Position numbers and translations under genes: made by a program. Below are positions 19,363 to 64,000 of a DNA stretch of 64,000 nucleotides, piece by piece. Source of the stretch: Cloeon dipterum. Taxonomy: Eukaryota; Arthropoda; Insecta; Ephemeroptera; Baetidae. Location: positions 36,630,844 to 36,694,843 of the forward strand of contig NC_088787.1 of assembly GCF_949628265.1 (NCBI RefSeq), written 5' to 3'. The notes beneath the pieces are model-generated. The model was not told the origin of the DNA. It saw only the letters and a list, made by a program, of their open reading frames with translations, and searched no databases. Position 1 is the first letter of the stretch; the number at the start of each line of letters is the position of its first letter.

Positions 19363-20691
19363 TTAATGCGATCGTAATATCGTCAGGTAAAACCCTGACA
19401 CCTCCTCATTTTCATCGTTGATCATTATTGCTTCTATTTCGTTACTACACATCTTCCCGCTGTTTTTGCTCTCGTTAATGATTCTCCAAGATGCTCGTGA
19501 CTTATTTGTTGATCTTGACAGTCGTTTGTCATTATGGATCCTTACTTCATTATTTACTTGATAACCCACATAACTCTTCAAAAACTTGTACTCTTTTACT
19601 AGGTATCGAGTTCTATCAGTCTTCTCACCATTATTTGTCTTATCACTTTTTTTAGCCAAAGAGAGTTGCTCTCCACATTTTCGAAGCTTATCTTTCATAA
19701 TACTTGTGAATTCGGACAGTCTCACTTTCCCGACCTGATTAGCTTTCTTCCTGGTTTTATTCAGGGGGAAGCTTTCTTCGTAGAGTCTAACAAGCCGGTT
19801 CATGAATATTTCACATTTTGCATCACATGACTGCATTTCGTAAAAATCAGTCCAACTTTCCTCACTCAAATAGTCTGTTAATTTGTTAAAATTATGTTCT
19901 GAATGTTTTTTTTATTTAATAGTTTATTTCTCTGCTATGTCATTTACATATCAAAAAGAGTAAAAAGGCACATGTACAAAGTGATCAGGTCACTGAAACG
20001 TCGGCAATCAAAGAATCGTCGAGTCGTACACAGCCTAAGCTAAAAAAAACACTCACAAACACATTAAAACTCCCGCCACAAAAAATCTTTTAGCTCCAAT
20101 GGGAAATGTGAAAATTGCTGGTCTTGAAGTGGCTGAGGCAAACTATTCCATAGCCTAGCGATCCTAAATGAAAATTAGAGAAGCTAATTTCATCTTGTCT
20201 CTTCTGTAAAGAAATGTCGAATTTAACTCTAACTGTTTTATGATCTGAGAATGGGACGACTTCAACGCAGAATTGGCTTTGATAGTCAAACGTGAACACA
20301 TGGTCAATTAACGTCATACTTGAGCCTGCTTCTATTGTTCCAATATTTTTACTAACCAGGTGAAGATTGTAGTTTTCCATAAGTTTTTCAAGTTTCGTTC
20401 CGTTTGCATTTTTGTTTAAAAGATCAATATTCAAATCTCCAATTATCATCAGTTCCTTGTTTGGGACCAGGAGAGTCTCAATGCAATCCTCTAAACACTC
20501 AAAAAAAATTTCCATCTGCAAGTTTGTACTATTTTTCTCGTTGCTAGGTCGATAAATTGCCAACAAGGAGAATGTCAAGTCACTTCCAACATTAATTTCA
20601 CAGCATATCGCTTCAAACTTCATTGCGACTGATTTCGTTTTAATTATATTCAACATGAAAACAACCTCGAGTGGTCGCACTTTTCAAATAT
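19363..20691 (-). mobile_element. Non-LTR retrotransposon fragment: endonuclease and linker (same group as the 24.6-kb element)
   Basis: On the minus strand, 20680-20170 encodes the C-terminal two thirds of an APE endonuclease: LLAIYRPSNEK, ELMIIGDLNIDL, TLIDHVFTF and VVPFSDHKTVRV (the catalytic SDH). After a nested insertion (19916-20166) the frame resumes at 19910: SEESWTDFYEMQ, LYEESFPLNKTRKKANQ and a long Lys-rich helical linker to about 19390. The linker aligns residue by residue with 25.47-25.85 kb of the plus-strand element (ESWLSVYE, LSFPLKKYINRANQ). A TGA at the extreme 5' end and loss of the reverse transcriptase show this is a dead piece. Confidence 0.75.
19916..20166 (-). mobile_element. 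Nested 3' end of another non-LTR element with 4-bp target duplication
   Basis: On the minus strand it begins with RIARLWNSLPQPLQ, the classic C-terminal 'R.a.lWNsLP' motif of non-LTR reverse transcriptase ORFs, and reaches a stop after LKDFLWREF. It ends in AATAAA and eight A residues (T run 19916-19923 on the plus strand). AATG flanks it on both sides (19912-19915 and 20167-20170). Removing the insert and one AATG rejoins the host element in frame as SNFHSEHNFNKLTDYL. Confidence 0.8.
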
Positions 20692-20785
20692 TAACAAAAC
20701 AGTTAGTCTCATGACACCACTGGGAAAGGGCGTGTTTTATTTCACTGCTCTTCCTTACTACTGTCAGCGAGACATAAGGCCAAAG

Positions 20786-21950
20786 CTAGACCCAAAAGTA
20801 CCAGCCCTGATGGGACCTGAGCCGGCGCTTTCCTTCACCTGCGAAGGCTACCGGCGTAACAGGCACCACGGCGGCAGTCTTCCAACCCGCTGGAAGCGTA
20901 CACTGCTGCAACGAGCAATTGAAAAGGCGCGCGAGGCTAGGAGCGTGAGCGGCAGCGCACTTCAGCAGCACGCAGCCCTGCACGCCGTCGGGGCCGGCCG
21001 TGGCGTTGCCCTTTAATTGCTTCAGCTTGCTGTAAACACACGCAACACTGACCGACATATCGCAAAGGGTGGGTGGAGGGGGGCCTGGGGGACGGCGTCG
21101 CATGAATGGGAAATAATTTTAGTTTAGCGGAAAACACAGGCTCGGAAATACATATTAACACCATTCACTAGAAACACGCCGGCAGAGGGAGAAATGTTGC
21201 TTTTTGATTTGATGTAGTCCCAGAAGAATTTGTTACCGTCGGGGCCGCGTCCCAACTTCCACATCCAGCCGTCCCTTGCTGTCCGCAACGCTTTTTGCAC
21301 TTTTCTGCGCGCCGCCAATAAATCATCGCACCTGCTTTGCGATTTGCCACCTTTCAAACAGCCTGTCTCGTTTATTTATTTCGGAGCGCAGTTCTTTCGT
21401 GATCCACGGTGTTGGATTTCTTTTTCCTGGGCGAACACGTTTCTTGGGTGCAGTTTCAGCTAGCGCTTCCCAATAAATTCTCAGCCACTTCTCCCAGCCA
21501 CGATCAACGTTTTCTCCCTCGAAAGTGCACTCGGCAAATGTTTCCTTGAGTTGCTGGCTAACAGCAGGCCAATCAGCTGTTTTGAAGTCGAAGATTACGC
21601 GTGTCGTGGTCGTTGCTCTCTGGGTAACCGCGAAATCTAGCAATATTGCATCGTTGTCTGACGTTCCTGGAACAATGGTCACGCTTGCAACGAACGCGGG
21701 CGCGTAACAGAGCGCGAGATCAAGGATTTTTGAAGTTGTGTCTGTCGTGCGGGTTGCGATCAGCACTAGCTGCTGCAGCGCGAGCTTAGAAAAAGTGCCG
21801 AGAAACTCGGCGGCGGGTGCGTGTCCTGCACGCGGCGGGTTTTGCGGCCAGTCTGCGTCCAAGTTAAAGTCCCCTTTGAGGACACACACGTTAGACACGT
21901 GTTTAATTTCGGTGGCTTTATCGAGAGAGGCAATCATGTGGTCGTTGTAA
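20786..21950 (-). mobile_element. Non-LTR retrotransposon fragment C: endonuclease end to reverse transcriptase start
   Basis: Minus strand. From about 21950: YNDHMIASLDKA, then VLKGDFNLDADWP (endonuclease GDFN), ILDLALCYAP and TSDNDAILLDF (where the catalytic SDH normally lies; here SDND). The linker continues (RPGKRNPTPWITKELRSEIN), shifts frame near 21350 and reads on with RKVQKALRTARDGW. A gap follows, then KLKQLKGNATAGPDGVQG and LPAGWKTAAVVPV, the first blocks of the reverse transcriptase. It is truncated on both sides and has at least two frame breaks. It is richer in GC and differs from the 24.6-kb family, looking more like the Jockey or CR1-type group. Confidence 0.7.
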
Positions 21951-21957
21951 GGGTGTC

Positions 21958-22606
21958 CTTGACCTCAAACAGAACGGAGCAAACTTCAAGAAACTGGAAG
22001 TTCCTTATAGCTGAAGATCACATATCAGAGGTGGGCGGGCCAATCTCATTTTTTGACCTCTGCAGGACCGCCAACGATGTCGATCGCATCCTTCTGGAAA
22101 GAATCAAGTTTGTCGATGTGCCTGAATTCTTCACGTGGGATCGCAAGGAGCGCAAGTGGAACGCCAGGAAGCGCCAGAGAATCAGAATGCTGGGAAACCT
22201 TTATCCCGTCTCTCCAAAACACGTGGAGAAATGCAGGCTCCGCGCTATTGTTCAGCACAGGCCGTTTATTACGAGGTTTGTAATAAATTCTAGCTCGTAA
22301 AATAAAAATTTTCGACCAAATTAATTTTATTTCCAGCTACGAAGACACAAGAACAGTTGATGGCGTCGAGCATCAGTCCTTCAGACAAGCGGCGGTCGCA
22401 ATGGGACTCGCCAGAGACGACCAAGAGCATAGGAACGTCCTGGAGGAAGCTAAAATGGGCGCAACCCCATTTTCAATGAGTGTTGTTCTTGATGCTTTAG
22501 CTCCATGCTGGCCCTGCGCAGCCAAAAGAACTTTTTGAGGAATATTGGCGCACCATGGTCGGCCCTTTCGCCCTGCAGCGAGATGAAGAAGGTCAGAGGT
22601 TGGCAG
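21958..22606 (+). pseudogene. Second, diverged Helitron fragment
   Basis: Aligns at protein level with 8470-9080. Exon 21980-22275 has RIKFVDVPEFFTWDRKERKW and VSPKHVEKCRLRAIVQH. Intron 22276-22336 (GTTTGT...TTCCAG) lies at the same codon position as intron 8784-8841. The next exon reads SYEDTRTVDGVEHQSFRQAA and ATPFSMS, then shifts frame and ends with ELFEEYWRTMVGPFALQ. It is broken by that frameshift and cut off at both ends by retrotransposons. Divergence from copy 1 is large, so they are different Helitron lineages rather than a recent duplicate. Confidence 0.75.
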
Positions 22607-22760
22607 CACTGCCTAGTAGCGTAAACATTGATTGTCCCTACGCTCTGCCATGTTCCCTAAATCCAATTTTGAGGACAACAAGTGCCGTAAATAGTGGTCC
22701 GAGCTGCAATTTGATACGGGTTTTCCATCTCCTGCGAAATTCCACTTGAATTTGTGAGAA
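22607..22760 (+). other. Probable 5' UTR of the macro-domain retrotransposon
   Basis: About 150 bp between the end of the Helitron fragment and the ATG at 22761. There is an in-frame TGA two codons before that ATG, which supports this start. No coding signal is seen. The exact 5' end of the element is not marked by any repeat. Confidence 0.4.
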
Positions 22761-24587
22761 ATGAGGGTGTTCTACGGCCGGCAATATCAGCCTGCCAGAA
22801 CCAGCATGGAGGCGGGGCCGGCTTGCCGGTGCGGCTGTAGCGAACAACAACACCACTGGATCGGGATTACCCTGAAAAAGGTACTAGATGACCTTCAACA
22901 GATCAAGAGCGCGGTTTTTAATCAGCAAGATGCCCGGGAAGACTCCGGAGCAGCCAGCACAAGCCACCAGCCCTGCCGAACAGAAAAGGCCAAAATCTTT
23001 GAAATAGACGGCGACCTTTTCCTGGACGCCCCGAAGGATGCCGCCCTTGCACACTGCGTGGGGGCAGATTTTCTGATGGGAGCCGGTCTGGCAGTCACGT
23101 TCAGAGAAATGTTCGGAAATGTTAACTACCTGAAGTCCCTTAAAAAGAAGCCAGGACAAACAGCCGCACTGAGATACTGCCCCGACAATGACGGAATCAA
23201 CAAGATGGTCTATTACTTAGTCACGAAACCGCGTTCCGCATGGTGCAAACCTCATCCGGACGACTTTCAAGCCGCCGTCCGTGATCTCGCACGATAATGT
23301 ACCGAGCACCACATCTCCACTCTAGCCATTCCGAGAATCGGCGCCGGCCTGGACAACCTCGGATGGCGCTGGGTCCGCGATGTCCTTGAGGCAGAATTCG
23401 CAGGAAGCAACACCGAAGTCCTGGTCTTCACCTCACCTTGTGAAAGGCCGAAGAAGAGGCGGAATCCTCATCTGCCGAGCCGACGAGTGGCCCCGAACAC
23501 CAGCGGCGCCCCGGATGCCGCCCGAGCACAGCATGCCGCCAGCCCAGGTGGACTCACTGTACTCAGGACGAAGGCCACCGAGATAACAGATGGGACGACT
23601 AAGACGGCCACTCCTCCACCTGCGTACAGCCACCCGGCGGCAGAGAATTCAGGTGAGCACATTTCAAATTGCTCTAACTCGGTCACCTTGACCGACGTAC
23701 AACCTACTACTTCTCACGAGGTTTTCACCTCTGCCAGGGTGGATGAGTGGACACTGATGCAGCGCTGCAGAACGGCCCCCGCATTTGACGGCGACTCAGA
23801 AGCCGTCCAGGAGCAACCTGCCGCGCGGAAGGAGGGACTCACTGAGCACGGATTGGAGGGCATCAAGACAATAGATTCAACCGAGCCGAAGAACACAACG
23901 AAGGGGGCCACCTCCTATCCTGTGCTCAGCCCTCCAGCGGCCGACAAACAAGGTGAGCGTTCAGAAATTCTCCATATGGCTACCCTGGTTGCCATTAGTT
24001 CAGACGCTGCCTCAGAAAATGCTTCCCCGATTCATTGGCCAACACGGAGCCCAAAAATATCGGCCCTGGAGAGAAGATTGAATGACGTGCGCAACAAGTT
24101 CGCTACCGCCGCAGAAGTCATCACCAGGACATTGCAGACTTCCCCATATACCCCATGGCGAGACAGTGCCCCAAAATCTGTCACCCCTATTGTCGCCTCG
24201 GCGGGTGGATCAGCTGGTCGCGGTACGGAGACCTGTGGGGCGACAAGGGTTCTCACTCCTTCCGCGACTGGCCCCACCCCAGGGCAAACGTCAGGTGAGA
24301 TTCATTCACAACACCCTGAGGCCATTTTAGCCAAAGGTTCACCTGGCAATGACCCCTTTGACGATGAGCCCCATTTCAGCGAAGCAGCTCCTAAACGAAC
24401 AAAGAGGAAAAAGACGCCGATACCTCGCCGCCTAATCGACCACAATGTTGAGACAAATGATGGCAAAGAAGAAGAGGAGCACGCTGAGAGCGAGGTTCGC
24501 ACGCCAAAGCAAGACAAAACGGGAAGCCCGTTCCTGAGAACAAGATCCCAGAAACGAGCAGCAGCAACAGTTCAACCAAAAAACTAA
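22761..24587 (+). CDS. Non-LTR retrotransposon ORF1 with a macro domain (one in-frame stop)
   Basis: ORF1 of the element whose ORF2 follows. Residues 1-35 include a Cys-rich CRCGCSEQQHH, followed by a short helical stretch. Residues 75-220 form a macro domain closest in pattern to the OARD1/TARG1 type, which binds ADP-ribose and removes it from proteins: IFEIDGDLFLDAPKDAALAH, CVGADFLMGAGLAVTFREMF (the MGAGLA loop), then VYYLVTK-like MVYYLVTKPRSAWCKP, and after an in-frame TAA (23295-23297) LAIPRIGAGLDNLGWRWV and EVLVFTSP. Residues about 235-600 are a Ser/Thr/Pro-rich disordered stretch with a basic end (RRLIDH, RTRSQKRAA). The stop sits inside the domain, so this copy is dead, edited or read through. 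The frame is identical on both sides. The protein ends at TAA 24585-24587, directly after A AAA AAC. Confidence 0.8.
24578..24587 (+). promoter_or_regulatory. Predicted -1 ribosomal frameshift heptamer A AAA AAC before the ORF1 stop
   Basis: In the ORF1 frame the codons are CCA AAA AAC TAA, so A AAA AAC lies in the X XXY YYZ phase that tandem slippage needs. Slipping back one base continues as CTA AAC CAC GGT, which is the ORF2 frame, open from about 24490 to 27292. No downstream pseudoknot was established by eye. Confidence 0.6.
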
Positions 24588-24622
24588 ACCACGGTAGTCG
24601 ACAGTTAGATCAATCAAGCAAT

Positions 24623-27292
24623 GTGAATGCACCAAACAATCCTGCTTGCAGTGACAACAACTATAATCGAAAAAGTCAAAACTTTAAAAACCTCAGTATA
24701 CTTTCGCTTAACGCGCACGGACTTCATGACAGCGTTAACTTCAACCTCTTTTATAATTTTATATATGACCTTGAAAGCAATCCTGATATTATTATTATTT
24801 GTGAACACTTCTTGGATAAGTGTGAAATTAACTCATTCAAATTACCAGGATACAAACTGATCTCTAACTACGCTAGAGCCAAAAAGAGAGGCGGAGTATT
24901 AATTCTATTAAGTGATAATTTATCTTGCAAAGTTAAAACCATTAAGTTAAAGTCCATCAATTTAATTATTGAACTCTGTGGGAACAAATTAATTTTTGAC
25001 AATTCAGAAATTACCGTCATTGCAGCTTATAGACCAAGCAATCCCAATGCAAATACTAACCATGAAATGTTCTTTGAAACCCTGCAGGACTTGTTGGAAA
25101 AAAATAGAGGTAACGGTAACTTCCTACTTGCAGGAGACCTAAATGTCGACCTTTCCGATTCTATAATACCAACCGCCAATAATACCAATAGCCACTCCCG
25201 CAAATTAATCCAAATTTGCAAATCTTTTGACCTACGGTTAATTAACCACACAGGTGCCACCAGGCGACCAAACAATTTTGTAACTGGAACCCTAATTGAT
25301 CACATTTTCTCAAACATGGCTGAAAATAGTTCGTATGAGATATTAGACACCCAATTCTCAGATCACAAGGCTGTTCACGTAAACCTTAAGGTTCCCATAA
25401 CCAGACAAGTTGACACTTTTATATTTAAACGAGTATTTAACGATCAAAACTGGGAAAAATTCGAAAGTCTTCTGCTAAAGGAATCATGGCTATCCGTTTA
25501 TGAGGCACATGATATTGACACTATGAGTGATACTTTTATGACTATATTGTTGAGATACTTTGAATTGTCATTTCCCTTGAAAAAATACATCAACAGAGCA
25601 AACCAAATGAATAAAATTGTGTTATCCGAATCAACAAAGCGAATTAAAATTGAATTACGCGAGGTGAGCGAGTCAATTAAATGTGTCACCGACAAAAACC
25701 ACAAAGAAAAACTTAAACGCGAATTAAAATCATTGAAAAAGTATCTTAGCTTTTGCATTAACTCGGAAATCAAGCAGAAAAATGACAAAGCGATAGCAAA
25801 CTCTAAAAATAAGAGCAAAACTGCATGGAATATTGTCAAAATATCATCACAGTCAATTAATAATGAACACAAAATTGAATCACTTAGGCTAGGAAACACT
25901 GTAATCAAAAACCAGACATCAATCGCGAATACTCTGAACACGAACTTTGTTGTTAAACCACCGTCACAAGGTACAGACACAAACCTTTACAATATGAGAG
26001 ATCCGCATATAGCAAACCAATTCAATCTAACTCCAACTAGCCCCGCGGAAGTTTATAGTGTTATTATTAACTTAGTAACAAAACACTCTGCCGGGTGGGA
26101 TGGCATCTCTGTTTACGTTCTTAAAAAGATTGCTTTGTTTATCGTAAATCCACTCGCCCACATGATAAATACATCTCTTGTGTCAGGTAAATTTCCGGAA
26201 AATATGAAGCTATCAAAGATAGTCCCAATTTACAAAAAAGGAGAAAAAGACGATCCCTCCAACTATAGACCAATTTCAATCACGTCATCACTGTCTAAAA
26301 TTTTTGAAAAAATATTTCTAGCCCGACTCGACCACCATTTCTTCGTTAATAATCTTTTCAGCCAAAATCAGCATGGCTTTAGGAAGCAAAAAAGTACAGT
26401 AACTGCACTTTTTGACTTCATAAGTAACATACATACATCAATTGACGCTAAAGAGAGGACGAATGTCATCCTCTATGACTTCTCCAATGCATTCGGGACT
26501 CTTTACCCGCAACTCCTTCTCCAAAAGCTGAAAATATATGGGCTTTGCAATAACTCAATTAAATGGCTAGAAACGTTTTTACTAAATCGTAAGCAATTTG
26601 TTCAACTCCGGGTATTAGACCAAGACAATAACACATACCGTGACGTGAACTCGACACATATATCTTCTCACATGGGCATTCCCCAGGGCACCACATTAGG
26701 TCCGACTGGATTTAATATCTACACTAATGACATTGATCTGCATATTGTAATTGCCACTTTATGTTTGTTCGCGGATGATACGAGTCTCGTTATTAACGGA
26801 CCCTGCAACAAAGTAGTAAACGATAGATCTAAAATAGCAAATGACCTAATTGTTGAGTACACAAAACTGAACCATCTCACACTGAACGCGAGTAAGACTA
26901 AGATACTACAAATGCATGTTTCCCAAATGACAAATGTGATAAATCCCCTTATAGAAATTAACAATTTTCAAATTGAAGTTGTAAACAAAAGTAAATTGCA
27001 TGGAGTTATAATCTCAGATACCTTGAATTGGAACGAACAATGTGATTTAGTCAGCAATAAACTTAGAAGTGTGACGTATCTTTTTACCGAATTAAGAGAC
27101 AAAGTGTCTAATGGTGTATTAAGACAGATTTATTTTGCGTACGCCCAAAGTCATATCCTTTATTCTATTATTATTTGGGGCGGGTCTACGTACCTGAAAA
27201 ACGTTTTTACCGCACAGAAAAGAGTTGTAAGGGCAATGGCTGGCCTAAGATACTGGAGGAAAAATACTGCCCTTGACTCATGCCGACCATAA
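24623..27292 (+). CDS. Non-LTR retrotransposon ORF2: endonuclease and reverse transcriptase, 3'-truncated
   Basis: An 889-codon uninterrupted frame. Residues about 25-260 are an APE endonuclease: ILSLNAHGL, IIIICEHFLDK (catalytic Glu), RGGVLILLSDN, VIAAYRPSNPNAN, LLAGDLNVDL, TLIDHIFSNM and FSDHKAVHV (catalytic SDH). A Lys-rich linker follows to about 480. The reverse transcriptase then runs with HSAGWDGI, KIVPIYKKGEKDDPSNYRPI, QNQHGFRKQKST, GIPQGTTLGPTGFNIYTNDI and LCLFADDTSLVI (FADD catalytic pair), ending at ALDSCRP. The last roughly 100 residues expected from the related minus-strand copy at 27334-28264 are missing, so the element is cut at 27292. The GTG at 24623 is not a likely start; the frame is open upstream and probably entered by frameshift from ORF1. 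The endonuclease and catalytic residues look intact. Confidence 0.85.
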   Translation: MNAPNNPACSDNNYNRKSQNFKNLSILSLNAHGLHDSVNFNLFYNFIYDLESNPDIIIICEHFLDKCEINSFKLPGYKLISNYARAKKRGGVLILLSDNLSCKVKTIKLKSINLIIELCGNKLIFDNSEITVIAAYRPSNPNANTNHEMFFETLQDLLEKNRGNGNFLLAGDLNVDLSDSIIPTANNTNSHSRKLIQICKSFDLRLINHTGATRRPNNFVTGTLIDHIFSNMAENSSYEILDTQFSDHKAVHVNLKVPITRQVDTFIFKRVFNDQNWEKFESLLLKESWLSVYEAHDIDTMSDTFMTILLRYFELSFPLKKYINRANQMNKIVLSESTKRIKIELREVSESIKCVTDKNHKEKLKRELKSLKKYLSFCINSEIKQKNDKAIANSKNKSKTAWNIVKISSQSINNEHKIESLRLGNTVIKNQTSIANTLNTNFVVKPPSQGTDTNLYNMRDPHIANQFNLTPTSPAEVYSVIINLVTKHSAGWDGISVYVLKKIALFIVNPLAHMINTSLVSGKFPENMKLSKIVPIYKKGEKDDPSNYRPISITSSLSKIFEKIFLARLDHHFFVNNLFSQNQHGFRKQKSTVTALFDFISNIHTSIDAKERTNVILYDFSNAFGTLYPQLLLQKLKIYGLCNNSIKWLETFLLNRKQFVQLRVLDQDNNTYRDVNSTHISSHMGIPQGTTLGPTGFNIYTNDIDLHIVIATLCLFADDTSLVINGPCNKVVNDRSKIANDLIVEYTKLNHLTLNASKTKILQMHVSQMTNVINPLIEINNFQIEVVNKSKLHGVIISDTLNWNEQCDLVSNKLRSVTYLFTELRDKVSNGVLRQIYFAYAQSHILYSIIIWGGSTYLKNVFTAQKRVVRAMAGLRYWRKNTALDSCRP

Positions 27293-27333
27293 TTAAAATA
27301 TGTCAATATATCTTACGCTGATTATCAGCTGAG

Positions 27334-28264
27334 TCACATATCAAAATCACAGGCAAAATATCCACATAAGTCATAATATTGGTAATGAGATAAAATAAGT
27401 TTAATTTGCCGTAGGAACTCTTTGCTATCATCAATAAATTTTACATCTTTGGGCAGAGCGTTAAATAGACGTGCTGTCATAACCGCAGGATTTTGTGTTG
27501 AGAGTTTTAGGTCAAAGGGGGCAATGAAAACATCATTTTGACTTCTATTTTTACAATAATTTCGAGTTATCCTCGTATTAGAGTCTCTAGCACCGACAAT
27601 CCTAACAAATTTTTCAGAGGCTTTTTAGGAATTTGAGACATTCGAAAATATACAGGGAGTAAAGAATATCAAATTTGGTGAACAGTGGCTTAGATGATTC
27701 CAGTGCGGTGTTGCTGCGCCAATATCTTTTCCCTGCCATTGCTATTATAACCCTTTTTTGCACTAAAAATACTGTCTGTAAGTGCGGCGAGGCCCCCCAA
27801 ATCACAATTGAATACAAAATTTGGCTCTGCCCATTTGCATAATAAATTTGTTTTAACATTGATTCAGACCCTTTTTCTCTAATTATAGTAAGCATATAAG
27901 TAATGCTACGCAATTTTTTCGTTATCTTGTAGCATTGTTCTTGCCAAGACATACAATCAGAAATATGTATCCCTAATAAATTGACATTGTTTACTGATTC
28001 AATGTCAATCTCACCAATTTTTATATCAAGCTTTTGTAACAATTTAGTTTGACAGGTATGAATTTGTAGTTGTTTCGGTTTTTGAGCATTCAGAATAAGC
28101 ATGTTTCTTTGTGCATATTTAATTACGGCCTGATTTGCATTTTTCGTCATATTTTGAATGTCATTACAATTCCCTTTAATAAGCAAGGATGAGTCGTCTG
28201 CGAAAAGGATCAAAGTGGCTAGTGACATCGTTAATGGCATAGCATTTACGTAGGCCCGTTTCAT
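27334..28264 (-). pseudogene. Reverse transcriptase C-terminal half of a related non-LTR element, inverted
   Basis: Minus strand, beginning within the palm domain: ATLILFADDSSLLI (FADD), LLGIHISDCMSWQEQC, QILYSIVIWGASPHLQTVF and RYWRSNTALESSKPLF. It parallels the plus-strand element at 26.75-27.29 kb but with many substitutions. One frameshift in an A run near 27636 separates this from the C-terminus VGARDSNTRITRNYCK, FDLKLSTQNPAVMTARLFN and a stop at 27334. It is 5'-truncated at about 28264. It meets the plus-strand element tail to tail. Confidence 0.8.
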
Positions 28265-28412
28265 CTGGGTGGCTTAAACAGACTCGGCAGAATCGTAAGA
28301 AAATCTGCAGAGCTAATCAGAGATGCGTGCGTGCTTACCGGAATGCTCAGGAGATAAAAATAAATTAAGATACTGTGTAATTACACGCTTTGCAAGTCTT
28401 GGCGTTGACAGT

Positions 28413-29778
28413 TCACTCATTGTACTCTTTGGACAGGTGAAAATCTTTGATTGCATGTTCGAGGCAGAGCAGTTTCTTACACCAGGAACATTTCAGAAAT
28501 TTTTTTCTTCCACACATTGCGAACACGCCATGCTTCAGGGGAAAGATGTATCTATGGGTACACTCGTATTTTTCGAGTCGCGATGTTACGTAGCCTGGCT
28601 TGAACCAAGCGTACTGCACCATGCTTCAAAATCGTGGTGAAACGAGCTGGTGGTAGGAGAATGAGATGAGCGATATCAGATTGTTCCTCGACTGAATTTT
28701 AAAATCAATTCTATTCAAAATGATTTCATCTTCGATGTTTCTCGTGATCTTCTTCAAGGGCCCATTCACGTTAACGTTCAATGGCTGGAACCTTCCTGTT
28801 GAGCCCTCCGGGATGTACAGAACATCAAGCTCAACTCCATTGTCCCTGAACAGAGCCTTGAGTTCCTCTCCGCGTTTGGTCCACCCACTCCATTTGTCGA
28901 TGATGATGAGCGATCGCATTCCTGGCAGAGTGTGGGGCAGTGCGCACTTTTGGAAGAGGTACAGAACTTGACCACCATGCATCTTGCAACTGTTGGTGCA
29001 AGTCACGACCAGGTTTACTGGTCGTAGGACTTGCACTGCAGGGCCAAAATGCCCATTATTCTCGGCCAGGATCAAATAGGCTGGCTCGAGGAGGTCACCT
29101 GCTGCATTGCAGGCTCGTACCAAGGTCACAGAGTCCGTTGTCGCGTTCATGCTTTATACGATCTTCTCAACCTTTTTTTGCCTCTAAACTCGAGGCTCCT
29201 GACAGCGTGAAACTCCTTTTTCAACCCAGTGTGGTCGAGGTTGAACAAGTGTTTGGCTTGCACTTCTCCGCTTTCAAGCAGGCCTTTCACTGTCTTGACA
29301 AAGTCTTTAGCTGGAGCTTCAATCAGCGCCTCGTCTCGAGCATTCTTTCTGCTGATAAACTTTCCCACCTTCCTGTCGACAATGTTATGCCTCTTTTTGA
29401 ACAAGTCTAGCCACGCATTTGAGGCTTTGAAATCTTCGAACGACAGAGAATGCTTCTCGGCAATTTCCAAAGCCCAGCTTCTAATTTGACACCCTTTAAT
29501 TACTGACTGGTCTTCCCGAAATTTTTGAATCAGCTCTTGTTCGACAGCAAGCAACTTTGAAGCCCTTGTGGATGAAACATTCTTGATTGTGAAAAAGCTG
29601 CGTTTGTCCTTCCTTCGGTTCTCACCACCCTCTGGGCTGTCAGCGTCAGCATAGCGCCAGAAGTCGACCACTTCCTTTTTGACTTGATAGTTGATCAAAT
29701 TTCTGCTTGGCTTCGTATTATCTTCTTCGTCTTCTTCGAAAGCTAGTTGAAATTCACCATCGCTGTCGTCATCAGAAT
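28413..29778 (-). pseudogene. Pogo/Tigger-like DDE transposase, broken
   Basis: Minus strand. 29778-29147: acidic N-terminus, then a CENPB-type DNA-binding region (WALEIAEKHSLSFEDFKASN, WLDLFKKRHNI) and the first catalytic region FNLDHTGL. A one-base shift at the overlapping ATGA (29147-29150) leads to SVTLVRACNAAGDLLEPAYL, LIIIDKWSGW (second Asp) and IPEGSTGRFQPLNVNVNG, where the third catalytic residue, normally Asp in QPLD, is Asn. After a TGA at about 28626 the same frame continues to a Cys-rich tail (LKCSWCKKLLCLEH), known from some Tigger-like families. The N-terminus is cut by element 1. Frameshift, stop and D-to-N change make it inactive. Confidence 0.75.
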
Positions 29779-29804
29779 CCCAGGTAGCACAAAATGTCAC
29801 CCAG

Positions 29805-51736: not shown

Positions 51737-52881
51737 AACCAAAGTTATCGATTTCCATTTATACGACCGAATAATATTTCTAAGATTGATGGACTTTTAA
51801 GAATGTTTGACCAAAACTATCGATTCCCGTTATTAAAACCGACCAAACCTTAGAAGATTGATGGAATACCAAGAATGTTTGACCAAATCTACCGATTTTC
51901 TTTCATACGAGCGAAAAATCTTTCAATAATTGATGGAATTCCAAGAATGTTTGACCAAAACTATCGATTTCCATTCATAGGACCGAATAATCTTTCGAAG
52001 ATTGATCGAATTCTAAGAATTACAGATCAAAACTATCGATTCCATTTCTTAAAACTGACCAATCTTTTAAAGATTGATGAAATTCCAAGAATGTTTGACC
52101 AAAACTTTCGTTCCCATGATTATAACCAAACAATCTTTTGAAGATTGATAGAATTCCGAGAATATTTAACCAAAGTTATCGATTTCCTTTCATACGACTG
52201 AATGATATTACGAAGATTGATGGAATTTTAAGAATGTTTGACCAAAACTATCGATTCCCGTTATTAGAACAGACCAATCTTTCGAAAATTGATGGAAGTC
52301 CAAGAATGATTGACCAAAACTATCGATTCCCGTTATTATAACCGACCGAACCTTAGAAGATTGATGGAATACCAGGAATGTTTGACCAAACCTAACGATT
52401 TTCTTTCATACGAGCGAAAAATCTTTCAAAGATTGATGGAATCCCAAGAATGTTTGACCAAAACTATCGATTTCCATACATAGGACCGAATAATCTTTCG
52501 AAGATTGATCGAATTCCAAGAATTACAGATCAAAACTATCGATTCCCTTTCTTAAAACTGACCAATGTTTTGAAGATTGATGAAATTCCAAGAATGTTTG
52601 ACCAAAACTATCGATTTCCTTACATAGGACCGAATAATCTTTTGAAGATTGATGGAAAACCAAGAATTTAAAACCAAAACTATCGATATCCTTTAATAGG
52701 ACCGAATAATCTTTTGAAGATTGATAGAATTCCGAAAATGTTTAACCAAAGTTATCGATTTCCTTTCATACGACTGAATGATATTACGAAGATTGATGGA
52801 ATTCTAAGAATGTTTGACCAAAACTATCGATTCCCGTTATTAGAACAGACCGAACCTTAGAAGATTGATGGAATACCAGGA

Positions 52882-53601
52882 ATGTTTGACCAAAACTATC
52901 GATTTCCATACATAGGACCGAATAATCTTTCGAAGATTGATCGAATTCCAAGAATTACAGATCAAAACTATCGATTCCCTTTCTTAAAACTGACTAATCT
53001 TTTGAAGATTGATGAAATTCCAAGAAAGTATGACCAAAACTATCGATTTCCTTTAATAGGACCGAATAATCTTTTGAAGATTGATAGAATTCCGAAAATG
53101 TTTAACCAAAGTTATCGATTTCCATTTATACGACCGAATAATATTTCTAAGATTGATGGACTTTTAAGAATGTTTGACCAAAACTATCGATTCCCGTTAT
53201 TAGAACCGACCAAACCTTCGAAGATTGATGGAATACCAAGAATGTTTAACCAAATCTACCGATTTTCTTTCATACGAGCGAAAAATCTTTCAATGATTGA
53301 TGGAATTCCAAGAATGTTTGACCAAAACTATAGATTTCCATTCATAGGACCGAATAATCTTTCGAAGATTGATCGAATTCCAAGAATTACAGATCAAAAC
53401 TATCGATTCCATTTCTTAAAACTGACCATTCTTTTGAAGATTGATGAAATTCCAAGAATGTTTGACCAAAACTATCGATTCCCGTTATTATAACCGACCG
53501 AACCTTAGAAGATTGATGGAATACCAGGAATGTTTGACCAAATCTGACGATTTTCTTTCATACGAGCGAAAAATCTTTCAAAGATTGATGGAATTCCAAG
53601 A
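52882..53601 (+). repeat. Satellite higher-order unit, copy 1 (ten monomers, 720 bp)
   Basis: Ten distinguishable monomers in order, starting with the PYIGPNNLSKIDRIPRI type and ending with the AKNLSKIDGIPRM type. The next unit starts exactly 720 bp later. Confidence 0.85.
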
Positions 53602-54321
53602 ATGTTTGACCAAAACTATCGATTTCCATACATAGGACCGAATAATCTTTCGAAGATTGATCGAATTCCAAGAATTACAGATCAAAACTATCGATTCCCT
53701 TTCTTAAAACTGACCAATCTTTTGAAGATTGATGAAATTCCAAGAAAGTATGACCAAAACTATCGATTTCCTTTAATAGGACCGAATAATCTTTTGAAGA
53801 TTGATAGAATTCCGAAAATGTTTAACCAAAGTTATCGATTTCCATTTATACGACCAAATAATATTTCTAAGATTGATGGACTTTTAAGAATGTTTGACCA
53901 AAACTATCGATTCCCGTTATTAGAACCGACCGAACCTTAGAAGATTGATGGAATACCAAGAATGTTTGACCAAATCTACCGATTTTCTTTCATACGAGCG
54001 AAAAATCTTTCAATGATTGATGGAATTCCAAGAATGTTTGACCAAAACTATAGATTTCCATTCATAGGACCGAATAATCTTTCGAAGATTGATCGAATTC
54101 CAAGAATTACAGATCAAAACTATCGATTCCATTTCTTAAAACTGACCATTCTTTTGAAGATTGATGAAATTCCAAGAATGTTTGACCAAAACTATCGATT
54201 CCCGTTATTATAACCGACCGAACCTTAGAAGATTGATGGAATACCAGGAATGTTTGACCAAATCTGACGATTTTCTTTCATACGAACGAAAAATCTTTCA
54301 AAGATTGATGGAATTCCAAGA
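53602..54321 (+). repeat. Satellite higher-order unit, copy 2
   Basis: Same ten monomers in the same order as 52882-53601 with only a small number of substitutions. A third copy starts at 54322 and switches to another monomer order near 54740. Confidence 0.85.
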
Positions 54322-57300
54322 ATGTTTGACCAAAACTATCGATTTCCATACATAGGACCGAATAATCTTTCGAAGATTGATCGAATTCCAAGAATTACAG
54401 ATCAAAACTATCGATTCCCTTTCTTAAAACTGACCAATCTTTTGAAGATTGATGAAATTCCAAGAAAGTATGACCAAAACTATCGATTTCCTTTAATAGG
54501 ACCGAATAATCTTTTGAAGATTGATAGAATTCCGAAAATGTTTAACCAAAGTTATCGATTTCCATTTATACGACCAAATAATATTTCTAAGATTGATGGA
54601 CTTTTAAGAATGTTTGACCAAAACTATCGATTCCCGTTATTAGAACCGACCGAACCTTAGAAGATTGATGGAATACCAAGAATGTTTGACCAAATCTACC
54701 GATTTTCTTTCATACGAGCGAAAAATCTTTCAAAGATTGATGGAATTCCAAGAATGTTTGACCAAAACTATCGATTTCCTTACATAGGACCGAATAATCT
54801 TTCGAAGATTGATCGAATTCCAAGAATTACAGATCAAAACTATCGATTCCCTTTCTTAAAACTGACCAATGTTTTGAAGATTGATGAAATTCCAAGAATG
54901 TTTGACCAAAACTATCGATTTCCTTACATAGGACCGAATAATCTTTTGAAGATTGATGGAAAACCAAGATATAAAACCAAAACTATCGATATCCTTTAAT
55001 AGGACCGAATAATCTTTTGAAGATTGATAGAATTCCGAAAATGTTTAACCAAAGTTATCGATTTCCATTTATACGACCGAATAATATTTCTAAGATTGAT
55101 GGACTTTTAAGAATGTTTGACCAAAACTATCGATTCCCGTTATTAAAACCGACCGAACCTTAGAAGATTGATGGAATACCAAGAATGTTTGACCAAATCT
55201 ACCGATTTTCTTTCATACGAGCGAAAAATCTTTCAATAATTGATGGAATTCCAAGAATGTTTGACCAAAACTATCGATTTCCATTCATAGGACCGAATAA
55301 TCTTTCGAAGATTGATCGAATTCTAAGAATTACAGATCAAAACTATCGATTCCATTTCTTAAAACTGACCATTCTTTTGAAGATTGATGAAATTCCAAGA
55401 ATGTTTGACCAAAACTATCGATTCCCGTTATTATAACCGACCGAACCTTAGAAGATTGATAGAATTCCGAGAATATTTAACCAAAGTTATCGATTTCCTT
55501 TCATACGACTGAATGATATTACGAAGATTGATGGAATTCTAAGAATGTTTGACCAAAACTATCGATTCCCGTTATTAGAACAGACCAATCTTTCGAAAAT
55601 TGATGGAAGTCCAAGAATGATTGACCAAAACTATCGATTCCCGTTATTATAACCGACCGAACCTTAGAAGATTGATGGAATACCAGGAATGTTTGACCAA
55701 ATCTAACGATTTTCTTTCATACGAGCGAAAAATCTTTCAAAGATTGATGGAATCCCAAGAATGTTTGACCAAAACTATCGATTTCCATACATAGGACCGA
55801 ATAATCTTTCGAAGATTGATCGAATTCCAAGAATTACAGATCAAAACTATCGATTCCCTTTCTTAAAACTGACCAATGTTTTGAAGATTGATGAAATTCC
55901 AAGAATGTTTGACCAAAACTATCGATTTCCTTACATAGGACCGAATAATCTTTTGAAGATTGATGGAAAACCAAGAATTTAAAACCAAAACTATCGATAT
56001 CCTTTAATAGGACCGAATAATCTTTTGAAGATTGATAGAATTCCGAAAATGTTTAACCAAAGTTATCGATTTCCTTTCATACGACTGAATGATATTACGA
56101 AGATTGATGGAATTCTAAGAATGTTTGACCAAAACTATCGATTTCCATACATAGGACCGAATAATCTTTCGAAGATTGATCGAATTCCAAGAATTACAGA
56201 TCAAAACTATCGATTCCCTTTCTTAAAACTGACTAATCTTTTGAAGATTGATGAAATTCCAAGAATGTATGACCAAAACTATCGATTTCCTTTAATAGGA
56301 CCGAATAATCTTTTGAAGATTGATAGAATTCCGAAAATGTTTAACCAAAGTTATCGATTTCCATTTATACGACCGAATAATATTTCTAAGATTGATGGAC
56401 TTTTAAGAATGTTTGACCAAAACTATCGATTCCCGTTATTAGAACCGACCAAACCTTCGAAGATTGATGGAATACCAAGAATGTTTAACCAAAACTATCG
56501 ATTTCCATACATAGGACCGAATAATCTTTCGAAGATTGATCGAATTCCAAGAATTACAGATCAAAACTATCGATTCCCTTTCTTAAAACTGACTAATCTT
56601 TTGAAGATTGATGAAATTCCAAGAATGTATGACCAAAACTATCGATTTCCTTTAATAGGACCGAATAATCTTTTGAAGATTGATAGAATTCCGAAAATGT
56701 TTAACCAAAGTTATCGATTTCCATTTATACGACCGAATAATATTTCTAAGATTGATGGACTTTTAAGAATGTTTGACCAAAACTATCGATTCCCGTTATT
56801 AGAACCGACCAAACCTTCGAAGATTGATGGAATACCAAGAATGTTTAACCAAATCTTCCGATTTTCTTTCATACGAGCGAAAAATCTTTCAATGATTGAT
56901 GGAATTCCAAGAATGTTTGACCAAAACTATCGATTTCCATTCATAGGACCGAATAATCTTTCGAAGATTGATCGAATTCCAAGAATTACAGATCAAAACT
57001 ATCGATTCCATTTCTTAAAACTGACCATTCTTTTGAAGATTGATGAAATTCCAAGAATGTTTGACCAAAACTATCGATTCCCGTTATTATAACCGACCGA
57101 ACCTTAGAAGATTGATGGAATACCAGGAATGATTGACCAAATCTGACGATTTTCTTTCATACGAGCGAAAAATCTTTCAAAGATTGATGAAATTCCAAGA
57201 ATGTTTGACCAAAACTATCGATTTCCTTACATAGGACCGAATAATCTTTTGAAGATTGATGGAAAACCAAGATATAAAACCAAAACTATCGATATCCTTT

Positions 57301-60300
57301 AATAGGACCGAATAATCTTTTGAAGATTGATAGAATTCCGAAAATGTTTAACCAAAGTTATCGATTTCCATTTATACGAGCGAATAATATTTCTAAGATT
57401 GATGGACTTTTAAGAATGTTTGACCAAAACTATCGATTCCCGTTATTAAAACCGACCAAACCTTAGAAGATTGATGGAATACCAAGAATGTTTGACCAAA
57501 TCTACCGATTTTCTTTCATACGAGCGAAAAATCTTTCAATAATTGATGGAATTCCAAGAATGTTTGACCAAAACTATCGATTTCCATTCATAGGACCGAA
57601 TAATCTTTCGAAGATTGATCGAATTCTAAGAATTACAGATCAAAACTATCGATTCCATTTCTTAAAACTGACCAATCTTTTGAAGATTGATGAAATTCCA
57701 AGAATGTTTGACCAAAACTTTCGTTCCCATGATTATAACCAAACAATCTTTTGAAGATTGATATAATTCCGAGAATATTTAACCAAAGTTATCGATTTCC
57801 TTTCATACGACTGAATGATATTACGAAGATTGATGGAATTCTAAGAATGTTTGACCAAAACTATCGATTCCCGTTATTAGAACAGACCAATCTTTCGAAA
57901 ATTGATGGAAGTCCAAGAATGATTGACCAAAACTATCGATTCCCGTTATTATAACCGACCGAACCTTAGAAGATTGATGGAATACCAGGAATGTTTGACC
58001 AAATCTAACGATTTTCTTTCATACGAGCGTAAAATCTTTCGAAGATTGATCGAATTCCAAGAATTACAGATCAAAACTATCGATTCCCTTTCTTAAAACT
58101 GACCAATGTTTTGAAGATTGATGAAATTCCAAGAATGTTTGACCAAAACTATCGATTTCCTTACATAGGACCGAATAATCTTTTGAAGATTGATGGAAAA
58201 CCAAGATATAAAACCAAAACTATCGATATCCTTTAATAGGACCGAATAATCTTTTGAAGATTGATAGAATTCCGAAAATGTTTAACCAAAGTTATCGATT
58301 TCCATTTATACGAGCGAATAATATTTCTAAGATTGATGGACTTTTAAGAATGTTTGACCAAAACTATCGATTCCCGTTATTAAAACCGACCAAACCTTAG
58401 AAGATTGATGGAATACCAAGAATGTTTGACCAAATCTACCGATTTTCTTTCATACGAGCGAAAAATCTTTCAATAATTGATGGAATTCCAAGAATGTTTG
58501 ACCAAAACTATCGATTTCCATTCATAGGACCGAATAATCTTTCGAAGATTGATCGAATTCTAAGAATTACAGATCAAAACTATCGATTCCATTTCTTAAA
58601 ACTGACCAATCTTTTGAAGATTGATGAAATTCCAAGAATGTTTGACCAAAACTTTCGTTCCCATGATTATAACCAAACAATCTTTTGAAGATTGATATAA
58701 TTCCGAGAATATTTAACCAAAGTTATCGATTTCCTTTCATACGACTGAATGATATTACGAAGATTGATGGAATTCTAAGAATGTTTGACCAAAACTATCG
58801 ATTCCCGTTATTATAACCGACCGAACCTTAGAAGATTGATGGAATACCAGGAATGTTTGACCAAATCTAACGATTTTCTTTCATACGAGCGTAAAATCTT
58901 TCGAAGATTGATCGAATTCCAAGAATTACAGATCAAAACTATCGATTCCCTTTCTTAAAACTGACCAATGTTTTGAAGATTGATGAAATTCCAAGAATGT
59001 TTGACCAAAACTATCGATTTCCTTACATAGGACCGAATAATCTTTTGAAGATTGATGGAAAACCAAGAATTTAAAACCAAAACTATCGATATCCTTTAAT
59101 AGGACCGAATAATCTTTTGAAGATTGATAGAATTCCGAAAATGTTTAACCAAAGTTATCGATTTCCTTTCATACGACTGAATGATATTACGAAGATTGAT
59201 GGAATTCTAAGAATGTTTGACCAAAACTATCGATTCCCGTTATTAGAACAGACCGAACCTTAGAAGATTGATGGAATACCAGGAATGTTTGACCAAAACT
59301 ATCGATTTCCATACATAGGACCGAATAATCTTTCGAAGATTGATCGAATTCCAAGAATTACAGATCAAAACTATCGATTCCCTTTCTTAAAACTGACTAA
59401 TCTTTTGAAGATTGATGAAATTCCAAGAATGTATGACCAAAACTATCGATTTCCTTTAATAGGACCGAATAATCTTTTGAAGATTGATAGAATTCCGAAA
59501 ATGTTTAACCAAAGTTATCGATTTCCATTTATACGACCGAATAATATTTCTAAGATTGATGGACTTTTAAGAATGTTTGACCAAAACTATCGATTCCCGT
59601 TATTAGAACCGACCAAACCTTCGAAGATTGATGGAATACCAAGAATGTTTAACCAAATCTACCGATTTTCTTTCATACGAGCGAAAAATCTTTCAATGAT
59701 TGATGGAATTCCAAGAATGTTTGACCAAAACTATAGATTTCCATTCATAGGACCGAATAATCTTTCGAAGATTGATCGAATTCCAAGAATTACAGATCAA
59801 AACTATCGATTCCATTTCTTAAAACTGACCATTCTTTTGAAGATTGATGAAATTCCAAGAATGTTTGACCAAAACTATCGATTCCCGTTATTATAACCGA
59901 CCGAACCTTAGAAGATTGATGGAATACCAGGAATGTTTGACCAAATCTGACGATTTTCTTTCATACGAGCGAAAAATCTTTCAAAGATTGATGGAATTCC
60001 AAGAATGTTTGACCAAAACTATCGATTTCCTTACATAGGACCGAATAATCTTTCGAAGATTGATCGAATTCCAAGAATTACAGATCAAAACTATCGATTC
60101 CCTTTCTTAAAACTGACCAATGTTTTGAAGATTGATGAAATTCCAAGAATGTTTTACCAAAACTATCGATTTCCTTACATAGGACCGAATAATCTTTTGA
60201 AGATTGATGGAAAACCAAGATATAAAACCAAAACTATCGATATCCTTTAATAGGACCGAATAATCTTTTGAAGATTGATAGAATTCCGAAAATGTTTAAC

Positions 60301-63300
60301 CAAAGTTATCGATTTCCTTTCATACGACTGAATGATATTACGAAGATTGATGGAATTCTAAGAATGTTTGACCAAAACTATCGATTCCCGTTATTAGAAC
60401 AGACCGAACCTTAGAAGATTGATGGAATACCAGGAATGTTTGACCAAAACTATCGATTTCCATACATAGGACCGAATAATCTTTCGAAGATTGATCGAAT
60501 TCCAAGAATTACAGATCAAAACTATCGATTCCCTTTCTTAAAACTGACTAATCTTTTGAAGATTGATGAAATTCCAAGAATGTATGACCAAAACTATCGA
60601 TTTCCTTTAATAGGACCGAATAATCTTTTGAAGATTGATAGAATTCCGAAAATGTTTAACCAAAGTTATCGATTTCCATTTATACGACCGAATAATATTT
60701 CTAAGATTGATGGACTTTTAAGAATGTTTGACCAAAACTATCGATTCCCGTTATTAGAACCGACCAAACCTTCGAAGATTGATGGAATACCAAGAATGTT
60801 TAACCAAATCTACCGATTTTCTTTCATACGAGCGAAAAATCTTTCAATGATTGATGGAATTCCAAGAATGTTTGACCAAAACTATCGATTTCCATTCATA
60901 GGACCGAATAATCTTTCGAAGATTGATCGAATTCCAAGAATTACAGATCAAAACTATCGATTCCATTTCTTAAAACTGACCATTCTTTTGAAGATTGATG
61001 AAATTCCAAGAATGTTTGACCAAAACTATCGATTCCCGTTATTATAACCGACCGAACCTTAGAAGATTGATGGAATACCAGGAATGTTTGACCAAATCTG
61101 ACGATTTTCTTTCATACGAGCGAAAAATCTTTCAAAGATTGATGAAATTCCAAGAATGTTTGACCAAAACTATCGATTTCCTTACATAGGACCGAATAAT
61201 CTTTTGAAGATTGATGGAAAACCAAGATATAAAACCAAAACTATCGATATCCTTTAATAGGACCGAATAATCTTTTGAAGATTGATAGAATTCCGAAAAT
61301 GTTTAACCAAAGTTATCGATTTCCATTTATACGACCGAATAATATTTCTAAGATTGATGGACTTTTAAGAATGTTTGACCAAAACTATCGATTCCCGTTA
61401 ATAGAACAGACCAAACCTTACAAGATTGATGGAATACCAAGAATGTTTGACCAAATCTACCGATTTTCTTTCATACGAGCGAAAAATCTTTCAAAGATTG
61501 ATGGAATTCCAAGAATGTTTGACCAAAACTATCGATTTCCTTACATAGGACCGAATAATCTTTCGAAGATTGATCGAATTCCAAGAATTACAGATCAAAA
61601 CTATCGATTCCCTTTCTTAAAACTGACCAATGTTTTGAAGATTGATGAAATTCCAAGAATGTTTGACCAAAACTATCGATTTCCTTACATAGGACCGAAT
61701 AATCTTTTGAAGATTGATGGAAAACCAAGATATAAAACCAAAACTATCGATATCCTTTAATAGGACCGAATAATCTTTTGAAGATTGATAGAATTCCGAA
61801 AATGTTTAACCAAAGTTATCGATTTCCATTTATACGAGCGAATAATATTTCTAAGATTGATGGACTTTTAAGAATGTTTGACCAAAACTATCGATTCCCG
61901 TTATTAAAACCGACCAAACCTTAGAAGATTGATGGAATACCAAGAATGTTTGACCAAATCTACCGATTTTCTTTCATACGAGCGAAAAATCTTTCAATAA
62001 TTGATGGAATTCCAAGAATGTTTGACCAAAACTATCGATTTCCATTCATAGGACCGAATAATCTTTCGAAGATTGATCGAATTCTAAGAATTACAGATCA
62101 AAACTATCGATTCCATTTCTTAAAACTGACCAATCTTTTGAAGATTGATGAAATTCCAAGAATGTTTGACCAAAACTTTCGTTCCCATGATTATAACCAA
62201 ACAATCTTTTGAAGATTGATATAATTCCGAGAATATTTAACCAAAGTTATCGATTTCCTTTCATACGACTGAATGATATTACGAAGATTGATGGAATTCT
62301 AAGAATGTTTGACCAAAACTATCGATTCCCGTTATTAGAACAGACCAATCTTTCGAAAATTGATGGAAGTCCAAGAATGATTGACCAAAACTATCGATTC
62401 TCGTTATTATAACCGACCGAACCTTAGAAGATTGATGGAATACCAGGAATGTTTGACCAAATCTAACGATTTTCTTTCATACGAGCGTAAAATCTTTCGA
62501 AGATTGATCGAATTCCAAGAATTACAGATCAAAACTATCGATTCCCTTTCTTAAAACTGACCAATGTTTTGAAGATTGATGAAATTCCAAGAATGTTTGA
62601 CCAAAACTATCGATTTCCTTACATAGGACCGAATAATCTTTTGAAGATTGATGGAAAACCAAGAATTTAAAACCAAAACTATCGATATCCTTTAATAGGA
62701 CCGAATAATCTTTTGAAGATTGATAGAATTCCGAAAATGTTTAACCAAAGTTATCGATTTCCTTTCATACGACTGAATGATATTACGAAGATTGATGGAA
62801 TTCTAAGAATGTTTGACCAAAACTATCGATTCCCGTTATTAGAACAGACCGAACCTTAGAAGATTGATGGAATACCAGGAATGTTTGACCAAAACTATCG
62901 ATTTCCATACATAGGACCGAATAATCTTTCGAAGATTGATCGAATTCCAAGAATTACAGATCAAAACTATCGATTCCCTTTCTTAAAACTGACTAATCTT
63001 TTGAAGATTGATGAAATTCCAAGAATGTATGACCAAAACTATCGATTTCCTTTAATAGGACCGAATAATCTTTTGAAGATTGATAGAATTCCGAAAATGT
63101 TTAACCAAAGTTATCGATTTCCATTTATACGACCGAATAATATTTCTAAGATTGATGGACTTTTAAGAATGTTTGACCAAAACTATCGATTCCCGTTATT
63201 AGAACCGACCAAACCTTCGAAGATTGATGGAATACCAAGAATGTTTAACCAAATCTACCGATTTTCTTTCATACGAGCGAAAAATCTTTCAATGATTGAT

Positions 63301-64000
63301 GGAATTCCAAGAATGTTTGACCAAAACTATAGATTTCCATTCATAGGACCGAATAATCTTTCGAAGATTGATCGAATTCCAAGAATTACAGATCAAAACT
63401 ATCGATTCCATTTCTTAAAACTGACCATTCTTTTGTAGATTGATGAAATTCCAAGAATGTTTGACCAAAACTATCGATTCCCGTTATTATAACCGACCGA
63501 ACCTTAGAAGATTGATGGAATACCAGGAATGTTTGACCAAATCTGACGATTTTCTTTCATACGAGCGAAAAATCTTTCAAAGATTGATGGAATTCCAAGA
63601 ATGTTTGACCAAAACTATCGATTTCCATACATAGGACCGAATAATCTTTCGAAGATTGATCGAATTCCAAGAATTACAGATCAAAACTATCGATTCCCTT
63701 TCTTAAACCTGACCAATCTTTTGAAGATTGATGAAATTCCAAGAAAGTATGACCAAAACTATCGATTTCCTTTAATAGGACCGAATAATCTTTTGAAGAT
63801 TGATAGAATTCCGAAAATGTTTAACCAAAGTTATCGATTTCCATTTATACGACCAAATAATATTTCTAAGATTGATGGACTTGTAAGAATGTTTGACCAA
63901 AACTATCGATTCCCGTTATTAGAACCGACCGAACCTTAGAAGATTGATGGAATACCAAGAATGTTTGACCAAATCTACCGATTTTCTTTCATACGAGCGA

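Follow-up and report, generated by a model that had tools for sequence, protein, structure and literature searches.

A TARG1-class macro domain in the ORF1 of a mayfly non-LTR retrotransposon group, with a predicted ADP-ribosyl hydrolase function

A 64,000-nucleotide stretch of the genome of the mayfly Cloeon dipterum (contig NC_088787.1, positions 36,630,844 to 36,694,843; hereafter the window) contains a dead copy of a multi-copy group of non-long-terminal-repeat (non-LTR) retrotransposons of the apurinic/apyrimidinic endonuclease (APE) type, whose first open reading frame (ORF1) encodes a macro domain of the TARG1 class. Because this domain keeps the positions of the catalytic lysine and aspartate, the ORF1 protein (ORF1p) is predicted to be an ADP-ribosyl hydrolase, and on balance we favor the reading that it erases host ADP-ribosylation from the element particle, from silencing factors or from nicked DNA.

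A conserved macro domain in ORF1

ORF1 of the window copy is a full-length homologue of an intact ORF1 of 621 residues at locus L004, and the five peptides from which an earlier sequence-only reading had called an OARD1/TARG1-like macro domain all occur in order in its single frame, which is interrupted by one TAA (Table 1). The call itself held: in a search of solved structures, human TARG1 chains match residues 75-224 (E 1.5e-24), and DarG is the next best structure at E 1.6e-6. With the stop read as X, the window ORF1 gives a match to the Pfam Macro profile that falls just short of the cut-off (19.7 bits, cut-off 22, E 8.7e-4), while the intact L004 ORF1 scores above it (23.9 bits) and matches TARG1 at E 1.6e-26. 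The macro fold is supported by one predicted model, which matches the TARG1 fold. The nearest named protein match comes from another mayfly, Neocloeon triangulifer, at 51%.

TARG1 uses Lys84 and Asp125 in catalysis, and strips ADP-ribose from glutamate and aspartate and from the phosphate ends of DNA and RNA (PMC9411070). In an alignment of 30 macro rows, where the residue positions of the divergent rows were aligned by MAFFT alone, the Lys84 position is kept in all 30 and the Asp125 position in 28, both exceptions (L038 and P0016) having glutamate. The counts among the 18 non-LTR rows of the host genome are 18/18 and 17/18, and the window copy keeps both residues.

The macro domain is under purifying selection. 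The proportion of nonsynonymous differences (pN), which is the safer measure since synonymous sites are saturated or nearly so, is 0.14 in the macro domain between the window copy and L004, against 0.35 in the N-terminus and 0.28 in the tail; between L013 and L016 the values are 0.09, 0.32 and 0.27. The dN/dS ratios that the sequence-only reading had suggested as a check point the same way, at 0.07, 0.32 and 0.45 for the first pair and 0.08, 0.70 and 0.52 for the second. Pairs of near-identical copies hold too few changes for such estimates.

After the macro domain comes an extended tail, most of which is disordered according to the L004 model, and then an ORF2 with Pfam endonuclease and RVT_1 domains, the order first described for this copy. 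The LINE-1 endonuclease matches ORF2 residues 22-255 (E 3.5e-9); beyond this LINE-1-type endonuclease, the ORF2 search showed only weak similarity to R2. The element is an APE-type non-LTR retrotransposon with endonuclease and reverse transcriptase (RT) in ORF2.

Copies, modularity and exchange of ORF1

The genome search covered 190 Mb in 10 contigs, and its copy counts are lower bounds: at least 45 matches to the L004 ORF1, 53 to the window ORF2, 41 to the L040 ORF1 and 48 to the L038 ORF2, the last being the 48 scored of 1339 candidates. A macro ORF1 was counted where an ORF2 match began within its first 25 residues and a macro match lay on the same strand, at most 4 kb upstream. Among the matches listed, 14 of 20 window-type ORF2s have such an ORF1, six TARG1-like (families A, B, C and L021) and eight divergent and L040-like, which bears out the idea that further copies would carry the domain ahead of the same ORF2. 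In the L038-type arm a macro match precedes 12 of the 25 ORF2s listed (two TARG1-like, families D and E, and ten divergent).

The upstream DNA was read for three of the six window-type ORF2s that have no macro match. C1:3984167 is a 5'-truncated copy; at C7:787619 (L051) the upstream frame begins inside the end of the macro domain and appears by eye to be a broken macro ORF1; and at C2:37245224 (L050) a macro-less ORF1 lies ahead of ORF2. The other three are C1:389507, likely a sibling of the macro-less copy, C3:27376764 and C5:1509072. Two of the 13 L038-arm ORF2s that have no macro match were also read: L052 has a macro-less ORF1 and L053 is devoid of any 100-residue ORF. The two macro-less ORF1s (L050 734-2383 and L052 516-1766) stand ahead of full-length ORF2s of both RT arms and, judged by eye, retain a similar N-terminus and the tail repeats. 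The macro domain is widespread yet modular, not fixed, and elements of two distant RT arms carry it. The ORF1 architecture proposed from the window alone is shared by other copies, but it is not the invariable partner of this kind of ORF2.

Other macro proteins were seen in the genome, namely an OARD1-like pair with a long tail (L005/L007, L027) and a multi-copy family of about 230-280 residues (L036, L037, L039, L043, L046); no window-type ORF2 was found in the stretches that hold them.

The elements have inserted independently, with 5' truncation in the case of C1:3984167. Families D (L013, L014, L015), C (L018, L019) and E (L016, L017) include copies open in ORF1, and within each family the 5' regions agree up to a common start, beyond which the flanks diverge. 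Ungapped identity over the common 5' stretch is 0.97 in D, 0.95 in C and 0.59 in E, the last making a weaker case for mobility since the value is so low, an indel being likely. The near-identity of copies argues for recent movement. Family A copies agree at 98-99% of DNA positions. The state of ORF2 varies, open in some copies and carrying stops in others, and a target duplication of 6 bases is apparent by eye at one copy of family C (L018/L047). A satellite array with a 72-base unit, in about 170 copies, occupies window positions 51738-64000, with further arrays on the same contig; the family C copy L018/L047, L015 and L050 adjoin this kind of satellite or lie inside it.

The macro tree does not follow the RT tree. 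A tree of ten RT pieces, all of them local rows without named reference elements, divides into two deep arms, the A/B/C/L040 type and the D/E/L038 type, with support of 100/100. The macro tree places family C and L022 together with D, E and L020 (99/97); an RT-like grouping of D, E, L020 and the L038 type is rejected (approximately unbiased test, p-AU 0.005); L020 was placed with D and E in this test by macro similarity and not by its own ORF2. The conflict between the two trees points to exchange of ORF1 between RT arms, on a macro tree of 145 columns with long branches. Near-copies and broken rows (B_L012, D_L014, D_L015, E_L017, C_L019 and L021) were left out of it. Exchange of ORF1 between the CR1 and L2 lineages has been published (PMC4120745).

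The window copy and the hairpins in its ORF1 tail

Table 1. Features of the window copy and its 3' neighbor, in window coordinates.
Feature	Position	Strand	Basis or remark
5' untranslated region of element	22600..22760	+	starts with TTGGCAGCACTGCC; DNA homology, shared 5' motif
ORF1	22761..24587	+	609 codons, final stop counted; broken by one TAA
Predicted N-terminal helix, probable coiled coil	22842..22928	+	helix 28-56 of L004 model, ungapped alignment to window
TARG1-like macro domain, residues 75-226	22983..23438	+	
Lys codon, equivalent to TARG1 Lys84	23226..23228	+	macro alignment
In-frame TAA disrupting ORF1	23295..23297	+	
Asp codon, equivalent to TARG1 Asp125	23352..23354	+	macro alignment
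RNA hairpin unit R1	23523..23657	+	covariance model 84.4 bits, model member; covariation
RNA hairpin unit R2	23808..23957	+	covariance model 60.2 bits; R2 units not in model building
RNA hairpin unit R3	24180..24299	+	covariance model 111.6 bits, model member; covariation
ORF2, ends before its C-terminus	24623..27292	+	endonuclease about 24686-25387, reverse transcriptase about 26240-26911 (Pfam)
Inverted 3' part of related ORF2, tail to tail with element	27293..28264	-	tblastn 50.8% identity at 28252-27686

The element starts near 22600, about 160 bases upstream of ORF1: copy L011 is homologous to it in DNA from 22591 onward, and families C, D and E open with a similar motif, 5' of which their flanks differ. 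The element start is a short palindrome, imperfect and of the type TTGGCAG..CTGCC, in the window as in these families. DNA homology with copy L044 stops at 27290. The window copy is dead, through the stop in ORF1 and the break of ORF2 near 27290 at the inverted related fragment.

Some windows of the ORF1 tail have a dS of only about 0.26-0.6, compared with more than 1 over much of the macro domain, and these coincide with repeated units ending in AGGTGAG; the units (23523-24299 in the window) are conserved at the DNA level more than in the protein. Fifteen units, drawn from families A-E, L020 and L022, support a two-stem hairpin. Pairing cells amount to 90.1%, against 81.7% in shuffles (0/500 as high) and at most 50% when the alignment is slid, and 23 cells have changed on both sides, against 6.7 in shuffles; these figures come from a structure chosen on the same sequences, with four rows in which part of the outer stem is missing. 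Two weaker measures gave a mild signal for pairs changed on both sides (19/500) and no distinction for the number of pair types (115/500). The units do not stand out by folding energy (z -1.5 to +0.9 for six of them), so the case for the hairpin rests on covariation and low synonymous change.

A covariance model run over 24 sequences found three units in each 5'-complete ORF1 of families A and B, two in C, D, E and L022, and one in L020 and in the truncated L024/L044, with none in L027, L029, L038-L043, L045, L047-L049 or the rest of the window. Its 27 matches (21 distinct) pair at 92.0%, in an alignment fitted to the structure. The R2 units, which stood outside the model, score 48-60 bits, and the one weak antisense match (E 0.046) is located on a unit. 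With filters off, weak matches appear in L050, L051, L038 and L040; L050 has four AGGTGA repeats with no clear common stem. Up to E 5, nothing in Rfam matched window 21000-28500, and in eight loci there were only three weak matches to unrelated families, none of them on a hairpin, so that a known RNA family was rejected. The hairpins are candidates for a means by which the element recognizes its own RNA.

Elsewhere in the window, other non-LTR ORF2 fragments lie on the reverse strand at 19459-21043 and 21323-21937 (30-38% to the window ORF2), a region that also shows an endonuclease-like ORF by eye. Two neighboring ORFs at 28626-29800, again on the reverse strand, resemble, by eye, a pogo/jerky-type DNA transposase.

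Predicted function, alternatives and known systems

Human TARG1/OARD1 (C6orf130) is a small single-domain host enzyme, whereas here the domain sits between a helix and a long tail within ORF1. To our knowledge few enzymes occur in non-LTR ORF1s, the esterase being the classic one. That esterase ORF1 (type IV; CR1, L2, RTEX) is common to distant elements and sets a precedent for an ORF1 enzyme beyond RNA packaging (PMC3905857, PMC5408684), with a lipolytic esterase fold and chemistry unlike those of an ADP-ribosyl hydrolase. ORF1 types I-V of Khazina and Weichenrieder resemble our element in the place of ORF1 ahead of an APE-RT ORF2, in a predicted helix and in the passage of ORF1s between lineages (PMC4120745). 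Pfam scans of the window and L004 ORF1s found no RNA recognition motif (RRM) next to a CCHC as in type I (E up to 1 and 0.1, respectively), and no PHD or esterase match as in types III and IV; for the L1-like type II, a helix is predicted and Transposase_22 is unmatched, though divergent RRMs can evade Pfam. By the scheme of PMC4120745 this ORF1 would fall under type V, unclassified.

A literature search by title or abstract, with subscription papers, preprints and Repbase notes outside its scope, found no description of a macro-domain non-LTR ORF1. The word "macro" is absent from PMC4120745 in the text available, and a word search of the available text of that paper, PMC3905857 and PMC5408684 gave no macro-domain passage. 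Retrotransposons of dinoflagellates and charophytes have likewise acquired a host chromatin enzyme on more than one occasion, in their case a DNA methyltransferase (DNMT) and not an ADP-ribosyl hydrolase (PMC5890265). Macro domains of the same fold are borne by other parasites, among them alphaviruses (nsP3). These viral domains counter host ADP-ribosylation and have tied it to antiviral defense. LTR-type polyproteins of the beetle Molorchus minor have a TARG1-like domain too; the one row aligned, P0007, keeps the lysine and the aspartate, and carries gag, protease and integrase-type domains, a macro domain near the C-terminus that is below the Pfam cut-off, and then a CCCH finger. The macro tree does not resolve its position. 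TARG1-like stretches were seen in polyproteins or fragments P0004-P0015 and P0019-P0021 of this beetle, of which P0007 was scanned. P0003, an ORF1-like protein of 855 residues, has a macro domain that passes the Pfam cut-off; inspection by eye also shows CCHC-like cysteines close to the C-terminus of this protein. Together, the beetle proteins and P0003 suggest a wider macro-retroelement theme.

We propose that the N-terminal helix would multimerize ORF1p, that the basic disordered tail and the message hairpins may mark element RNA for ORF1p or ORF2p, and that the macro domain would work on the ORF1p/RNA particle or at the target. Its likeliest substrates would be those of TARG1, mono-ADP-ribose attached to glutamate and aspartate side chains and to the phosphate ends of DNA or RNA. 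The element would most probably gain relief from ADP-ribosylation-based silencing, with control of PARP signaling at the nick as the second candidate. In mammals, SIRT6 mono-ADP-ribosylates KAP1 and so aids L1 silencing (PMC4695847), and PARP1 and PARP2 promote L1 insertion (PMC8535693, PMC10201437); an element-borne hydrolase could undo silencing of the SIRT6-KAP1 type or tune PARP action at insertion.

Several observations weigh against this proposal. The help that PARP1 and PARP2 give to L1 disfavors the view, in its simple form, that the domain counters PARP where the element inserts, and the silencing precedent is mammalian, while the host here is an insect. Hydrolase activity is itself predicted from sequence and a structure model. 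The Pfam score of the window copy is under the cut-off, the divergent types L038, L040 and L041 have no Pfam Macro match, L038 is the one divergent type covered by a structure model, and divergent types make up 8/14 and 10/12 of the upstream macro matches in the two arms. The position of TARG1 Asp20 is asparagine in family C, L021, L038 and L042, and that of Asp125 is glutamate in L038 and P0016. As macro-less ORF1s precede two other full-length ORF2s, the domain is dispensable. The selection ratios also need care: within the macro domain, dS approaches saturation for the window-L004 (A-B) pair; dS is saturated in other between-family pairs, and the tail dN/dS is inflated because the DNA itself is conserved there, which lowers tail dS.

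An alternative that we rate as rather unlikely, if worth serious attention, is that the macro domain is mainly a nucleic-acid-binding or ADP-ribose-reading module in place of an RRM, which packages RNA or tethers the element to ADP-ribosylated breaks, hydrolysis being incidental. The domain does come after a helix, the place that the RRM takes in L1-type ORF1s (PMC4120745), a viral macro domain has been crystallized with RNA (3gpq), the tail and N-terminus are basic in five of the six ORF1s measured, and the message hairpins are candidate binding sites. In four of the six (A, B, C and D), however, the macro domain itself is close to neutral or mildly acidic, and even copies that have diverged strongly retain the two catalytic positions of TARG1, where a pure binder would need less. 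More improbable still is a domain that repairs the element's own ADP-ribosylated nucleic acid, shielding cDNA or RNA ends from a host ADP-ribosyltransferase. TARG1 and DarG, the closest solved structures, both act on thymidine-linked ADP-ribose on DNA, but substrate choice is not readable from sequence.

We give practically no credence to the idea that this is a single chimera, an artefact of assembly or a host macro gene beside a retrotransposon. The window copy is broken in both ORFs, and the genome has macro genes for which no adjacent ORF2 was found (L005/L007, L027, L029, L039, L043, L046), yet many copies in several families share the ORF order and have common 5' ends with differing flanks, and presumed host-gene macro rows fall outside the group of A-E, P0001 and P0002 in the macro tree (93/100). 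Differing flanks and upstream macro matches in both RT arms refute a chimera or artefact.

Beyond the predicted hydrolase, we raise more tentatively the possibility that insect retrotransposons repeatedly captured a TARG1-class hydrolase and use it as a transferable weapon against silencing. A cassette in ORF1, made up of helix, macro hydrolase and a tail with RNA-recognition hairpins, would then cross distant RT lineages, the LTR elements would represent a separate capture, and ADP-ribosylation would be a front line of genome defense.

Macro-bearing and macro-less sibling families in one genome make the question directly testable, with the macro-less ORF1s of L050 and L052 as natural controls for what the domain contributes, and the covarying message hairpins are a candidate for how these elements recognize their own RNA. 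If the prediction is true, a conserved ADP-ribosyl hydrolase in ORF1 would bring ADP-ribosylation directly into the conflict of genomes with retrotransposons.
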